Shown here in pieces: positions 35,271-57,321 of a stretch of DNA of 64,000 nucleotides. Within the stretch, counting starts at the first letter, position 1. Every line of letters begins with the position of its first letter. The notes below the pieces were generated by a model. It was not told the DNA's origin, did no database searches, and saw nothing but the letters and a program-made list of their open reading frames with translations. A program made the position numbers and the translations under genes. The stretch is from Bacteroidia bacterium. Its GTDB lineage: Bacteria > Bacteroidota > Bacteroidia > Flavobacteriales_D > Cryomorphaceae. The stretch lies in assembly GCA_030427905.1 (NCBI GenBank), contig JAUICL010000001.1, positions 930,001 through 994,000 of the forward strand, written 5' to 3'.

Positions 35271-37934
35271 ATGAGAAACCTCGTACTTACATGTGTATTG
35301 CTATGCTTCGGGTTTTTACCCGTTCGCGCATTTCACATCATTGGTGGAGAGATGTACTATCAGTGCTTTGCCGATGGTACATACGATTTTACGATGAAAC
35401 TTTTTCGCGACTGCGGGAATAATCAAGGGGCACCATTCGACAACCCGGCAAGTTTTGGAATATTCGATGAAAACAACCAACTGGTAGATCAAATTTCCGT
35501 AAATGTATCTTCTATCACACCTGTGATTCCCGATCTAAGCTCACCATGTATTTCTATTCCCCCAAACATATGTGTGGAAGAAGGGATTTATGAATTTACA
35601 ATTGATCTTCCAGACGATGGTCAGACTTATACCGTGGTTTACCAACGTTGCTGTAGGAATCAAACAATACAAAATCTTGAAATACCAGGTAGCCAAGGGC
35701 TGACTATCGCGGCTGAAGTGCCCGCAATGCCGGACGGAGAATGTAATTCACGACCTTCTTACAACAATTTTCCACCGCCAATTCTATGTGCCCAAGAGTA
35801 TTTGGAATTTGACCACAGTGCCACCGATTTAGATGGCGATTCTTTGGCGTATTCACTTTGCAGTCCATTCATAGGGGCTTCTCAAGACGCTCCTCAACCT
35901 TCGCCGCCTTCAGCCCCACCTTACCCTACAGTAAACTGGGCTGCAGGGTTTGATGAGCTTGATCCAATTACTGGAAACCCGGGGCTGAGTATTGACCCCA
36001 TTACAGGGTTGCTCTCCGGAACTCCCACGGTTATTGGTCAGTTTGTAGTGGGGGTTTGTGTAGAAGAATGGCGAGATGGTCAATTGTTGAGTGTCAATAC
36101 GCGAGATTTTCAATTTAATGTTGCCGTTTGCGAAGAGTCAACCCAGGCCATTATCGAAGAAGTAGACCCAGCGGAGTTTTGTGAAGATCTTACCGTTGAG
36201 TTTTTCAATGCATCCGACCCGACGAACGATTTTCTTTGGGATTTTGGTGACCCGGAAACCGATGAAGATACCAGTGAAAATTACGATGGAATATACACCT
36301 ATCCCGATACAGGTACCTACAGCGTGATGCTTATCACCAATCCGGGCTTTTTCTGTTCCGATACTTCCATCATTGAAGTTCCGCTCTATATGGAAATTAC
36401 GGTGGAAGTGAGCGTCGCAGATTTCGAGTGTATTAATGGACAACAGGTTTTCTCCTTTGAAGCCGATGGAGATTTTGATCATGATAATAGTACGGTACTC
36501 TGGGATTTTGGCGAAGGTGCTACCCCTTCAAATGCAGAAGGAGTCGTTATAAATGGTATTGAGTTTGTCGAAACGGGTCCACAAGAAGTCTTTGTGGAAG
36601 TATTAAACAATATCTGTCCCGCTGCCGATAGTGTAGAAATCAATATCCCGGAAGAACCTACTGCCGAGATTACCCCACAAAACATTTTCTGCAGTGGCCT
36701 TTCCTATCAATTCTCGCAGACCAGCACCAATGCCAATATTTACCTTTGGGATTTTGGGGTGGAAGATGGCGATGGAGATACGAGTGCTGATCAAACCCCT
36801 ACGTTTCTCTTTCCCGAACCTGGCCAATACGAAGTGTCTTTGACAGTTCAAAGCGTATTAAACTGCCCTGTAACAGTCACGGAGAATTTTGAGATATTCC
36901 CCTTTCTCGATGCCGATTTTGACCCACCGCCTATAGCTTGTTTTGAAGAGAATGCCGTGGCTTTTTCTGCCGGTGGGAGCTATACCGATGACGCAGTTTT
37001 TTCTTGGACCTTCGAAAATGGTTCGCCTGCAACGAGTAGTTCAGAAAATCCTTCGGGAATCGAGTTTTCGGAAGCTGGGGCCAATGAAGTTACGCTCACG
37101 ATTAGCGAGAACGGGTGTACTAGATCTGCTGCCGAGAATGTCGTTCTCCACGCCAACCCGATAGCCGATTTTGAATTGTTTCCGCCGGGTGGATGCCTAC
37201 CTGTTGATGTACTCTTTTCGAATAGATCAACCACATCGAGTTCTCAAGTGGAATACACCTGGGATTTTGGAGATGGCATGTCGACAACGGGATACAACGT
37301 AGAGCACACCTACAATAGCCCTGGACTGTATACGGTTTCTCTAACTGTGCAAAACCTGAATGGATGTATCGACTCGGATACCCATACCATCGAAAACGTA
37401 GTCGAAGTTGTGCCATCACCCACAGCTAGCTTTCGCGTTAACCCGGGCATTATTTCCGTTTTTGACCCGGTTGTTGAAATTACAGATATGAGCTTAGGCT
37501 CTGTCTCATGTGAGTATCTCCTAGACGGACAGGTCTTTAGTGAATGTGATTTTACACATGAGATGGAAACCCTCCAAGCGCAGACTATTACCTTGACTGC
37601 CACCAACGAATATGGGTGTTCTGATCAAGCTGAAGCCGAAATCAAGTTTTCTGACCATATCATCTACATTCCCAATTCGTTTACCCCAGATGGCGATGGC
37701 TTGAATGATCTCTTCATCCCGGAAGTGATCGGGGCCACCAATATCCAAATGTTTATTACCGATAGATGGGGGAGAGAAGTGTTCTCAAACAAACATGTTA
37801 CCCGCGGATGGGATGGAGGCGATGCGAGCGGAGAGTATTATGTGGAAGCTGGGGTCTATCAATACTTCATAATTATCACCGACCATTTAGGCTGGAATTT
37901 CGAGTACTTGGGTACGGTCACCCTTCTGCGCTAA
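35271..37934 (+). CDS. PKD-repeat surface protein with type B T9SS C-terminal domain
   Basis: 887 residues from the ATG at 35271 (MRNLVLTCVLLCFGFLPVRA signal peptide; an in-frame ATG at 35220 would add 17 residues before it). An N-terminal unit rich in Cys (MYYQCFADGTYDFTMKLFRDC, VYQRCCRNQTI) and DATDLDGDSLAY-type cadherin-like sequence is followed by about five PKD-like repeats (FLWDFGDPE, LWDFGEG, LWDFGVEDG, FSWTFENG, YTWDFGDGMS) and a gliding-associated C-terminal domain (IPNSFTPDGDGLNDLF, DRWGREVF, YQYFIIITDHLG). It is PorV/SprF-type cargo, probably an adhesin. Convergent with the acetyltransferase (17-bp overlap). Confidence 0.88.
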   Translation: MRNLVLTCVLLCFGFLPVRAFHIIGGEMYYQCFADGTYDFTMKLFRDCGNNQGAPFDNPASFGIFDENNQLVDQISVNVSSITPVIPDLSSPCISIPPNICVEEGIYEFTIDLPDDGQTYTVVYQRCCRNQTIQNLEIPGSQGLTIAAEVPAMPDGECNSRPSYNNFPPPILCAQEYLEFDHSATDLDGDSLAYSLCSPFIGASQDAPQPSPPSAPPYPTVNWAAGFDELDPITGNPGLSIDPITGLLSGTPTVIGQFVVGVCVEEWRDGQLLSVNTRDFQFNVAVCEESTQAIIEEVDPAEFCEDLTVEFFNASDPTNDFLWDFGDPETDEDTSENYDGIYTYPDTGTYSVMLITNPGFFCSDTSIIEVPLYMEITVEVSVADFECINGQQVFSFEADGDFDHDNSTVLWDFGEGATPSNAEGVVINGIEFVETGPQEVFVEVLNNICPAADSVEINIPEEPTAEITPQNIFCSGLSYQFSQTSTNANIYLWDFGVEDGDGDTSADQTPTFLFPEPGQYEVSLTVQSVLNCPVTVTENFEIFPFLDADFDPPPIACFEENAVAFSAGGSYTDDAVFSWTFENGSPATSSSENPSGIEFSEAGANEVTLTISENGCTRSAAENVVLHANPIADFELFPPGGCLPVDVLFSNRSTTSSSQVEYTWDFGDGMSTTGYNVEHTYNSPGLYTVSLTVQNLNGCIDSDTHTIENVVEVVPSPTASFRVNPGIISVFDPVVEITDMSLGSVSCEYLLDGQVFSECDFTHEMETLQAQTITLTATNEYGCSDQAEAEIKFSDHIIYIPNSFTPDGDGLNDLFIPEVIGATNIQMFITDRWGREVFSNKHVTRGWDGGDASGEYYVEAGVYQYFIIITDHLGWNFEYLGTVTLLR

Positions 37935-53534: not shown

Positions 53535-54333
53535 TTTGGAAACGCATGGCGTTCATGCCTCTCTTTTCGAGCGCTTCTTCCACGTAGTCGAAAGTCGATA
53601 AGATATCTGGCTTGCCATCGACCATGGCGATGTCGTGCTCGAAGTGGGCTGAGTACTTCTGATCAGCAGTCACGATGGTCCAATCGTCTTCGAGCATCAA
53701 GATGTCTTTGGTACCCATATTAACCATAGGTTCAATCGCCAGAACCATCCCGTTTTGAAGTTTCTTTCCGCGACCGCGTCTCCCGTAATTTGGCACTTGT
53801 GGGTCTTCGTGCATGGTTTTTCCAAGTCCGTGTCCCACTAATTCGCGCACTATTCCGTACCCTTCTTTTTCGGCGTGCTGCTGTATGGCATAGCCTATAT
53901 CGCCAATGCGGTTGCCCCAAACCATCTGCTCAATTCCAATATAGAGACTCTCCTTGGTAATGCGTAGAAGTTTTTCGACTTCAGGACTCACTTCACCGAT
54001 AGCAAAGGTGTATGCGTGATCGCCGTAGTAACCGTTCTTTACTGTTCCACAATCTATAGAAGCGATATCTCCTTCTTCCAAAGGCTTGTCAGATGGGATA
54101 CCGTGCACGACTGCTTCATTCACCGAGATACACAGCGAATTAGGGAAGCCATTGAATCCAAGAAAGCCCGGTACAGCGCCATTGTCGTGGATGTACTCGT
54201 AGGCCAGTTTGTCGAGCTCCAGCGGTGTGACTCCCGGCCCGATTTTTTCGGCAATCAAGCCTAGGGTTCGCGATACAATCTGCGCACTCTCGCGCATGAG
54301 TTCTATTTCTTCAGCTGATTTTAAGTGGATCAT
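53527..54333 (-). CDS. map: methionine aminopeptidase, type I
   Basis: Removes N-terminal Met from nascent proteins. The 268-residue product has the metal ligands Asp94 (SIDCG), Asp105 (GDHAYTF), His168 (GHGLGKTMHEDP), Glu201 (AIEPM) and Glu232 (HFEHD), plus His77 (VVHGIP) near the substrate. There is no SH3/zinc-finger extension. In many bacteria map stands in the ribosomal spc operon; here it follows a HAD phosphatase gene by a 4-bp overlap (ATGA), so it is transcribed apart from ribosomal genes. Confidence 0.95.
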   Translation of the reverse strand: MIHLKSAEEIELMRESAQIVSRTLGLIAEKIGPGVTPLELDKLAYEYIHDNGAVPGFLGFNGFPNSLCISVNEAVVHGIPSDKPLEEGDIASIDCGTVKNGYYGDHAYTFAIGEVSPEVEKLLRITKESLYIGIEQMVWGNRIGDIGYAIQQHAEKEGYGIVRELVGHGLGKTMHEDPQVPNYGRRGRGKKLQNGMVLAIEPMVNMGTKDILMLEDDWTIVTADQKYSAHFEHDIAMVDGKPDILSTFDYVEEALEKRGMNAMRFQTI

Positions 54334-54779
54334 TTGGAACCAAAAAGTTTAGAGAAAACGGTTTTCTTTTTCTTGTAATTATGGTGCGCTTCCGGGTTTT
54401 TGAATTGGTGATTCACTTCACCGTCTTCCGGGTGCAACATCTGGTAAATTTCTCCCCAGCCCAAAAAGCCACCAATATTTCGATCATCGATAAAGATATC
54501 GGCATTGATCTTTCGGCTTATCGAAGCGTCGTGCTTCTCCTCTGGGTACGACATGTTTACAGCGTAAAACTCCACACCATTCGAAGCGCAATACTTTACT
54601 GCTTCATCCAACAAAGCCCCATCGCGATACGTCCAAAGGATAAGCTTGTGCCCCTTTTTCTGCAACGCCTTTAAGGTATCGAAAGCAAATAGCATCTCCT
54701 TTCCGATTTTCGGGTAGGCGTGCTCCACAATGGTGCCGTCAAAGTCAACTGCTATGGTAAGGCCTTCGTCAGATATCAT
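54330..54779 (-). CDS. small HAD-superfamily hydrolase (BT0820-like)
   Basis: 149 residues from the ATG at 54779 (MISDEGLTIAVDFDGTIVEHAYP; upstream in-frame codons run into the repeat region and look unlike coding sequence). HAD motif I DFDGT, motif II-like LILWTYRDG, and the acidic pair IFIDDRNIGGFLGW (motif IV) are present, with a basic tail KKKKTVFSKLFGSK. The Bacteroides BT0820 structure belongs to this group; substrate unknown. Its 5' side borders the repeat region. Confidence 0.82.
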   Translation of the reverse strand: MISDEGLTIAVDFDGTIVEHAYPKIGKEMLFAFDTLKALQKKGHKLILWTYRDGALLDEAVKYCASNGVEFYAVNMSYPEEKHDASISRKINADIFIDDRNIGGFLGWGEIYQMLHPEDGEVNHQFKNPEAHHNYKKKKTVFSKLFGSK

Positions 54780-54833
54780 GTACTGAAATTTGCCACAAAA
54801 GTAGGTAAATATATGGTGGGGGTTTGTACTTCT

Positions 54834-55090
54834 CTGATTAACGTTGGCCACCTTAAAAAATTGAATGTCGAACACCGATTAACGAGTAGCGATTTGCGAA
54901 ATTTTGAAATAGGTGATCACTTCTAAAATCGCTAATCGTTGTTCCTTGTACTGACGCTATCGGTCACCACTGCTTCGCAGTTCTGAAATCAGTACAAAAG
55001 GTTTCAGCTTTAGAGTAGGCACCACGAAGGCCGCAAAGGTCACAAAGTTACACAGAGATACTCTCCGTACTCTATGGCTCAGTGGTGATA
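54834..55090. repeat. long intergenic repeat, copy 1
   Basis: Begins CTGATTAACGTTGGCCACC and holds in order: a segment with an internal inverted repeat (TAGCGATTT at 54887-54895 against AAATCGCTA at 54926-54934), the palindrome GTGATCAC (54913-54920), TTCCTTGTACTGACGC, CACTGCTTCGCAG, then CACAAAG-type short units and GTTACACAGAG. The same blocks in the same order appear in copy 2 at 55437. Confidence 0.85.
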
Positions 55091-55230
55091 AGAAGATCGA
55101 GTAGTTTGATACCAGGCATTGCGTTTCACAAATCATACGGTAGTAGTGTATGAGATTCGAACCATACCCCCAATGTGCAAGAAAAAAGTATCTCCATAGA
55201 AGTTCTAGCTCTGATTCAAATTTGATAGGT

Positions 55231-55329
55231 AGTTAGACCGCAATATCACCGTATTCAGACCGTATTATGACCGTCTGAAGACCGTCACTAGACCGTAAGG
55301 AGACCGTATGAAGACCGTATGAAGACCGT
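55231..55329. repeat. tandem array of nine 11-bp units ending in accgt
   Basis: Nine adjoining 11-bp units: agttagaccgc, aatatcaccgt, attcagaccgt, attatgaccgt, ctgaagaccgt, cactagaccgt, aaggagaccgt, atgaagaccgt, atgaagaccgt. The 3' part (g/c-accgt) is fixed while the first 4-5 bases vary. The array stands between the two long repeats. Confidence 0.9.
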
Positions 55330-55436
55330 GAGATGAATTTAGTAGCCTAGAGCTCTCAGTTTCCTTATCATATGGGTCGCGCTGGGTGATGATATAGGTC
55401 TGCTTTTCTGTTTGAAGTAGACGATAATGTATGCCC

Positions 55437-55804
55437 CTGATTAAAGTTGACCACCTCAATACATTGAATATCGAACATCGATTAACGATTAGAGATTTGC
55501 GAAGTTTTTAATTGGTGATCACTTCTAAAATCGCTAATCGGTGTTCCTTGTACTGACGCACTGACGTTATCGGTCACCACTGCTTCTTGTACTGACGCTT
55601 CTTACAGTCGGTCAGCACTGCTTCGCAGTTCTCAAATCAAAACGGTGAGCTAAAATGGGCACCACAAAGGCCACAAAGGCACAAAGGTCACAAAGGTCAC
55701 AAAGTTACACAGAGTTCTCTGTGTTCATTGCGCTCTAAGTGGTGAAAGAATTTAGACTGTTCTGAACGCCCAACCCGATAATGAATAGGGTCAACATTAA
55801 TCAG
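55437..55804. repeat. long intergenic repeat, copy 2, with terminal inverted repeats
   Basis: Homologous to copy 1 from 55437 to about 55750, with an extra inner duplication of CTTGTACTGACGC and CACTGCTTC. CTGATTAAAGTTGACC (55437-55452) is matched by its inverse GGTCAACATTAATCAG (55789-55804), 15 of 16 positions, so the unit is bounded by inverted repeats about 368 bp apart. No target-site duplication is evident and no reading frame lies inside. Confidence 0.75.
55663..55709. repeat. CACAAAGG short tandem units
   Basis: About five near-identical units of CACAAAGGC/CACAAAGGT run together and end in GTTACACAGAG, inside copy 2. Copy 1 has only about two (GGCCGCAAAGGTCACAAAG), so the number of units has changed since the copies separated. 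Confidence 0.75.
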
Positions 55805-55972: not shown

Positions 55973-57178
55973 TTAATTCCTCAAGACCGTAAACTCCACC
56001 CGTCTATTGATGGCTCTGCCCGCGTCGGTGTCGTTTGAAGTGATCGGTTTCGTGCTCCCATACCCCCGATAGCTCACCCGTGTTGGATTTACCTTGGCTT
56101 CGAGCAGGTAGTCCACTACGCTTTTGGCGCGGGCTTCGCTGAGTTTTTGATTGTACGACTCCGAGCCTACGTTATCGGTGTGCCCACCGATCTCGATTGA
56201 CAAGTATGGATAGTCCGTCAGGATATCGAGTAGCTTTTCCAGTTCGGCTTCCGACTTAGGGAGCAGCTCAGCTTTATCGAATTCAAAAAAGATATTCTCA
56301 AGGGTAATGGTATTTCCAACCTTGTACTGAATACTGTCTAGCTTGATTTCCTTCGTCGAAACGATGGCAGCTTTTTCGAGAACGATTTTTGGTCTCGGTG
56401 GGATAGATCGCTTGGGCTCAGGGGTGAGCGCTTCTGTGGGCTTCGCTCTTCGCACTTTTACGTCGTCGATGTAGTAGTATGCTCCACCGCGACCTTCTTC
56501 AAACTCGGTAGTTTCTGTCTTGTCGTCGTGGTAGAAGTTTCCGATGATCATAAAGTGTTTTTCTTCGTCTACTTCAAATACACCAGATACCTTTTTCCAG
56601 GCATTCCATCGCGATTTGATCACTTTGTCTTCATTCACTTGCGGGGTGAAAAACAGTGGCATTCGGTCGCGGGTTACCACGGCTGTATCGCTAAAGTAGA
56701 TTCCCAGATTGTTTGTTGCTCGCTCTGAAGCGATGGCACGACTCGTATAAAACTCGGCATAGTAGCGCACCCCCGGCACCAATGCCGAATCGAGTTCCAC
56801 CATCAGGTATTCGTGCCAAAATGTGTCTGTACCCCCTTTTCCATGTGTTTTGATTCCAGCCATTCGTGCACCCGTTCTTGGGCCTTGCTTACCATCGCTG
56901 TGCTTCTTTGGGTTCGACCAACACGTGGGCTTCGTTTCTGTACTGAAAAAATCAGGCGTGGTTTCGGTAGGAGAGTCCCAGGCTTCCACGTGCTCCATGT
57001 ACTCGCGTCCATTCTGATTCCATTTGCAGTAGTCGCGCTCCCTTTCCTCAAAACTCGAATTCGGAACATAGTTGTAGTATTCATCTTCGGGCAAGAGATC
57101 TGAGAGCGATTGACCAGCTAGGTCAGACCCTAAGCAAACGATGAATGAGATGGTGATGAAAGGTATAAACTGCTTCAT
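55973..57178 (-). CDS. OmpA-family outer-membrane/periplasmic protein
   Basis: 401 residues from the ATG at 57178 (MKQFIPFITISFIVCLGSDLAGQ signal peptide). The N-terminal 240 residues form a carbohydrate-binding-like/jelly-roll domain (YVPNSSFEER, FWHEYLMVELDSALVPG, YYYIDDVKVRR); the C-terminal third is an OmpA peptidoglycan-binding domain (IFFEFDKAELLPKSEAEL, IGGHTDNVGSESYNQKLSEARAKSVVDYL, VSYRGYGSTKPI, AINRRVEF). It is divergent from another OmpA-domain gene (57357). It likely tethers an outer-membrane complex to the cell wall; the role of the N-terminal domain is unknown. Confidence 0.88.
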   Translation of the reverse strand: MKQFIPFITISFIVCLGSDLAGQSLSDLLPEDEYYNYVPNSSFEERERDYCKWNQNGREYMEHVEAWDSPTETTPDFFSTETKPTCWSNPKKHSDGKQGPRTGARMAGIKTHGKGGTDTFWHEYLMVELDSALVPGVRYYAEFYTSRAIASERATNNLGIYFSDTAVVTRDRMPLFFTPQVNEDKVIKSRWNAWKKVSGVFEVDEEKHFMIIGNFYHDDKTETTEFEEGRGGAYYYIDDVKVRRAKPTEALTPEPKRSIPPRPKIVLEKAAIVSTKEIKLDSIQYKVGNTITLENIFFEFDKAELLPKSEAELEKLLDILTDYPYLSIEIGGHTDNVGSESYNQKLSEARAKSVVDYLLEAKVNPTRVSYRGYGSTKPITSNDTDAGRAINRRVEFTVLRN

Positions 57179-57321
57179 AAGTTTTCCACAAATCGGTTTT
57201 TTGACCATGATGTAAAACTAGCTCAAGTCCTTTTGGGTGGGGGGCTTAGAAGTTTTTAATATCATCAGATTAATGTGGAAAATGACGATTTCCAAAACCC
57301 TGCTTGCCAAGCATGGGCAAT

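Follow-up and report, generated by a model that had tools for sequence, protein, structure and literature searches.

An ACCGT-core array with an exact 11-bp period as part of a dispersed, mostly intergenic repeat in a Bacteroidia genome and in scattered other lineages

The array and its surroundings

Between a minus-strand reading frame (54330-54875) and a minus-strand gene of the OmpA family (55973-57208), the 64,000-nucleotide stretch of DNA analysed here (hereafter the window) carries a tandem array of nine 11-bp units (55231..55329, plus strand). The frame at 54330-54875 comprises 181 codons, gave no match in a Pfam search that covered 10 proteins near arrays, and by eye probably starts nearer 54780; an M24 peptidase gene lies beyond it. 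A 64-codon minus-strand frame crosses the array and was not counted as a gene.

Direct reading gives contiguous units in the order agttagaccgc, aatatcaccgt, attcagaccgt, attatgaccgt, ctgaagaccgt, cactagaccgt, aaggagaccgt, atgaagaccgt and atgaagaccgt, of which the first two are degenerate (ACCGC and CACCGT) and units 3-9 end in GACCGT. This reproduces the count of the preliminary description, namely nine gapless units with ACCGT in 8/9, GACCGT in 7/9 and (A/T)GACCGT in 7/9; below, ACCGT is called the core and the variable bases before it the lead. TRF also detects the array, with a period of 11 at 55248-55329 and of 22 at 55235-55329. The pattern GACCGTN5GACCGT matches six times in the window and not once in 100 dinucleotide shuffles, and a three-unit ACCGT pattern with up to two mismatches matches seven times, against a shuffle mean of 0.07 and a maximum of 1. 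Same-strand ACCGT pairs number seven at a spacing of 11 bp and zero at 10 or 12 bp. The combination of constant and variable segments recalls a CRISPR, an identity that is ruled out by the 11-bp unit and by variable segments only 5-6 bp long that follow a common order, without unique spacers of about 30 bp; the earlier statement that this is not a CRISPR array is borne out, as the array contains no spacers as read.

The array is preceded by a leader (55159..55230, plus strand, start approximate), which in alignment is common to L015, L009, L012 and, more weakly, L013, and is followed by a tail (55330..55427, plus strand) common to C8:220.7k, C1:185.8k and C5:570.0k, with its first half also at C5:779.6k. 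The long direct repeats that had been claimed to flank the array are confirmed by self-comparison and by matches at other genomic places: a left copy with an imperfect palindrome (54825..54991, plus strand) and, about 603 bp away, a right copy (55428..55639, plus strand). More partial copies of these repeats of about 170 bp are present on other contigs. A CACAAAGG-type repeat likewise has a left copy (55023..55057, plus strand) and right copies (55654..55714, plus strand), the latter including a 9-bp tandem array at 55662-55704.

Copies in the source genome and absence from relatives

In the source genome (3.81 Mb on 13 contigs, the window included), pattern searches and a homology search with window positions 54780-55800 as query give the same nine array loci: C1:185.9k; C5:151.9k, 154.6k, 409.5k, 570.1k, 779.6k and 985.2k (the window); and C8:220.8k and 306.7k. 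The arrays are present in both orientations, vary in their number of units, and in no case (0/9) lie within a predicted frame of at least 90 codons. Their leads follow a common order (ATTCA, ATTAT, CTGAA, CACTA, AAGGA, then CTGGA or ATGAA), which indicates that they descend, as dispersed copies, from one ancestral array. Five copies share the leader and tail described above (subfamily A), three share other flanks (subfamily B), and one (L016) has neither. A separate four-unit 11-bp array (G000:C5:271147-271184, L387) has the core ACCGC in place of ACCGT.

The three-unit GACCGT pattern was absent from all 59 further family and order genomes that were searched, each of them from another genus. 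One of the source genome arrays stands in the gap between truB and queA, which there measures 492 bp. Among 23 relatives, queA was found within the 1.5-kb flank of truB in 18, including all seven same-family genomes, with gaps of at most 91 bp, and was not found within that flank in five; 17 of the 18 gaps measure 2-91 bp and contain no ACCGT pair at 11 bp, while the remaining one was computed as -37, from a match starting at residue 66. A period scan of the truB loci of the 23 relatives detected no array. By eye, the source gap ends with a queA-proximal piece resembling that of the relatives, and from this sequence comparison the array segment looks as if it had been inserted between gene end and promoter. 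The absence from all 59 relatives and the array-free truB-queA gaps thus point to a lineage-specific dispersed element and not to an ancient regulatory site. The preliminary description had named as counting against a functional element that the array be the only one in the genome, with relatives lacking a counterpart: the first part fell with the discovery of nine arrays, and the second agrees with the observations, for the exact three-unit pattern in the 59 family and order genomes and at truB-queA.

Constraint on the core

Pairwise identities within subfamily A amount to 351/351 in the core, 178/254 in the leads, 675/970 in the tail and 508/826 in the leader. With gapped columns dropped, the invariant columns among the five copies number 35/35, 9/25, 36/97 and 20/73, respectively, and 35/35, 11/25, 64/97 and 27/73 when the most diverged copy (L013) is omitted; Fisher p values range from 1e-8 to 2e-14 and are rough, columns being treated as independent. 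Because arrays were first located by their core, the core counts are biased toward intact cores, and a table of 53 units, selected in the same way, is descriptive only. The homology search with window 54780-55800 returned no additional array with broken cores. All five significant matches to the tail adjoin intact arrays (one covers 48/102 bases, the query being the consensus of these copies), and four more tail matches of 14-15 nt have E values of at least 1. These comparisons suggest that in subfamily A the ACCGT core has been under constraint while leads, tail and leader drifted, the core-only pattern being seen in the source genome alone. The earlier wording of a conserved core with free flanks therefore stands for the core, on the comparison of copies, and does not stand for the leads, whose order is common to the copies.

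Arrays in other lineages

A scan of genome contigs for four ACCGT units returned at least 113 stretches. Among the matches listed, many of the cases outside Bacteroidota are tandem copies of identical units, and several Bacteroidota genomes have multiple arrays with varied leads. In 21 genomes, all picked for having an array (19 Bacteroidota and one Cloacimonadota among the matches listed, plus G357), the three-unit pattern gave 792 matches on both strands, against 2 for the reversed control; the 792 overlap one another, and the number of arrays is lower. In a draw from the phylum, the four-unit pattern occurred in 2/395 genomes, one of them the source genome, and the reversed control matched in a single genome. 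Among genomes of the genus to which G457 belongs, 12/79 match (85 matches in G457, 10 in G482 and one to three in each of the other ten) and the reversed control matches in 4/79 (one or two each), so that in this genus the counts clearly exceed background in G457 and G482 only. The distribution of arrays is sporadic. A four-unit match occurs in 50 viral contigs, in many cases with identical or near-identical units, and window positions 55150-55430 had no blastn match in phages or plasmids.

The arrays comprise 3-13 units, and their leads are lineage-specific: 12 loci of Chitinophaga sp. E66 use ATTGTA, ATTGCA, ATTAAA and AGTCTA, and arrays of a Butyricimonas MAG consist of TGAACCGTT-type units. 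In nine of the 12 E66 loci the first core is preceded by the exact left end TTGTCATCTA, to the left of which the sequence is random. An inverted array lies beside a direct one in some lineages (G456, Flavihumibacter and the Cloacimonetes UBA5614). Anchored profiles, in which the anchor columns are constant by design, show that in G453 (17 copies) conservation is lost over the first two units or so beyond the array, and that in Butyricimonas (12 copies) it extends for about 50 bp on both sides and includes tail columns. At the Chitinophaga locus L272, a clean insertion was considered and by eye proved not to be clean: the array is missing from G514 and G477, a short 11-bp remnant is retained in G543 and G509, G507 has other sequence, and the two flanking genes lie apart in G482.

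The period was assessed by a scan for any 5-mer repeated at periods of 7-20 in at least four units with leads at most 75% alike. Period 11 accounted for the single array of the window (1/1), for all 22 arrays of G453 (22/22) and for 3/11 in G456 (the others being five of period 7, two of period 9 and one of period 18); 400 kb of the source genome gave three arrays of period 11 and one of period 7. G009 plus G020 gave one of period 11, G004 one of period 7 and G003 none, and 40 drawn pieces totalling 639 kb gave three of period 7, one of period 9, two of period 14 and none of period 11. A general 11-bp habit of the phylum was accordingly rejected, no period-11 array being present in these 639 kb or in 300 kb of the same-family genomes G003 and G004. 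Counted over 300 kb of G453, ACCGT or ACGGT pairs on the same strand numbered 46 at 11 bp, 3 at 10 bp and 4 at 12 bp. Near positions 35325, 40296, 50685 and 179820 of G453:C1, this genome also carries 11-bp arrays of a second family, whose core differs (GATGAGTA type).

Most arrays, though not all, are intergenic. In G453, of which 300 kb were examined, 18/19 arrays lie between predicted genes and 1/19 inside a frame, and the loci outside the source genome comprise 43 in tandem, 33 in divergent and 10 in convergent gaps, eight inside a frame and seven at an edge (a direct array and a neighbouring inverted one counted as one, a small number of loci entered twice, genes taken as simple longest frames). 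In the source genome, six arrays are in tandem gaps, two in divergent gaps and one in a convergent gap (L016).

Proposed explanation and its rivals

The explanation that we favour, with confidence evenly balanced between acceptance and doubt, is that the arrays belong to a small dispersed non-coding repeat of REP/MITE-like kind, the functional part of which is a head-to-tail row of 11-bp ACCGT-core sites for a putative cooperative DNA-binding protein. The exact phase, the fixed core, the tolerant leads and the direct or inverted order would all fit such a protein. Each core may be contacted by one subunit, and the protein may oligomerise or polymerise along the array, by analogy with the geometry of PhoB/OmpR-type boxes or ParR/parC iterons, with the leads acting as a spacer of fixed length. 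Eleven base pairs are close to, and not exactly, one turn of B-DNA, and the step would suit a nucleoprotein superhelix, such as ParR forms on parC, better than binding along a single face of B-DNA. The element would spread as a non-autonomous repeat and be kept or tolerated through the putative protein binding, although its sporadic spread fits a selfish element as well. A wider proposal, which we advance tentatively, is that several lineages of Bacteroidota and their neighbours share an unrecognised system in which one protein family would coat rows of scattered chromosomal 11-bp ACCGT sites (nine arrays in the source genome, 19 within the 300 kb of G453), with leads adjusted in each lineage and a role in nucleoid organisation, segregation or silencing.

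A close rival, possible if rather doubtful in our judgement, is a purely selfish, minisatellite-bearing MITE/REP-like element comparable to BrickBuilt, the core of which would be a signal for a mobilising enzyme and from which the host would gain nothing. The arrays are indeed lineage-specific, mostly intergenic and present in both orientations, five copies have leader and tail in common, the truB-queA site of relatives is array-free, and the constancy of the core could reflect a signal for mobilisation. However, no inverted pair of at least 12 nt was found in the 492-bp truB-queA gap (one site, with insert ends not fixed to the base), L016 retains its array without A or B flanks, and the same core recurs in distant lineages. 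Y1_Tnp matches, two of them in the source genome, occur in 13/21 array genomes, several barely above the cut-off, and are missing from the other 8/21, a count that speaks against RAYT as the cause of the spread. Against mobility speaks also one divergent gene pair at which two Bacteroidales lineages have ACCGT arrays that differ in lead type (L032:2263-2752 and L239:8793-9230).

That same gene pair is among the observations in favour of an improbable alternative, cis-regulatory operators of a regulon with direct repeats of the OmpR/PhoB type. The 11-bp direct-repeat geometry agrees with such operators, as do the source genome arrays that lie 236-274 bp upstream of a same-strand gene at four places, and divergent gaps outside the source genome are somewhat over-represented, with 33/86 classed arrays against 27/96 gaps of G453 and 30/108 gaps without an array at those same loci. 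The difference falls short of significance (p 0.16 and 0.13, respectively), convergent sites such as L016 exist, and the neighbouring genes lack a common function: in a comparison of 507 proteins (blastp, E 1e-6, 50% coverage), none of the gene families lying up to 2.5 kb from an array recurred in more than 3/25 lineage groups. By position, no significant bias toward a promoter or terminator role was detected, divergent gaps being slightly high. Three Butyricimonas arrays (L283, L284 and L286) lie in paralogous operons with, by eye, ECF sigma, anti-sigma and SusC genes; two of them are upstream of the sigma-like gene, and the L283 array is just behind it.

A structured RNA or hairpin element is very unlikely, since the inverted arrays side by side in G456, Flavihumibacter and UBA5614 that would suit it are outweighed by window fold z-scores of -0.95 and -0.02, by 2/54 compensatory predicted pairs with a covariation term of +2.75 (four of the five A copies), and by a sole Rfam match up to E 1 that scores 19.4 bits against a cut-off of 51. 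Plain tandem-repeat slippage followed by point mutation, for which some identical adjacent units (atgaagaccgt twice in the window) and differing unit numbers can be cited, has hardly any chance as the full explanation and is largely refuted, since the lead order is common to loci and since differences among the compared copies avoid the core, in line with the earlier argument that slippage of identical units does not explain the array.

Hairpins or inverted ends are the features by which dispersed bacterial repeats are usually described. In the present element, the part that looks constrained is a row of direct repeats in exact 11-bp phase, with a single core that recurs in distant lineages. 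If a protein binds, the arrays would be ready-made probes for finding it, and the truB-queA site, together with array-rich (G457, G482) and array-free species of Chitinophaga, makes both spread and effect testable.

Comparison with known systems

A literature search, with most subscription papers outside its scope, brought up no paper describing these arrays. Of the published systems that were found, BrickBuilt of Porphyromonas gingivalis is the closest in kind, with 19 intergenic copies, imperfect 23-nt direct repeats and a leader and tail (PMC4596501). IS5-like terminal inverted repeats and predicted long stem-loops are described for it, and it is reported from P. gingivalis and P. gulae (PMC4596501). 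Both repeats are intergenic and multi-copy, with a leader, a tail and tandem direct repeats of conserved and variable positions, whereas the unit here is 11 nt and not 23 nt, and terminal inverted repeats were not seen at the one site tested. Since the length of the unit, the reported ends and the range of hosts differ, the arrays are filed as dispersed intergenic repeats and not as BrickBuilt. As is expected of a MITE, several intergenic copies, here five, share leader and tail.

Plasmid centromeres of the ParR/parC type consist of 11-bp iterons, and the arrays resemble them in lining up 11-bp direct repeats in a way that would suit a DNA-binding protein acting cooperatively, but differ in their many chromosomal copies and in having no recurrent neighbour gene in the comparison of the 507 proteins. 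Boxes of the PhoB/OmpR family are 11-bp direct repeats with a conserved core and a spacer, usually in few units; the arrays share this build and differ in their 3-13 units and in showing no significant promoter preference.

REPs are hairpins. The arrays are, like REP/RAYT systems, short, intergenic, dispersed and sporadic, but they form a direct array without a fold beyond chance, and the palindrome of a REP hairpin was not found for them in the source genome. A Y1-transposase-like gene (L010:4550-5122) lies between two subfamily B arrays (L010:3905-6660, corresponding to G000:C5:151904-154659), and short GC-rich hairpin-like repeats (CCGC...GCGG, by eye) occur near both of these arrays.
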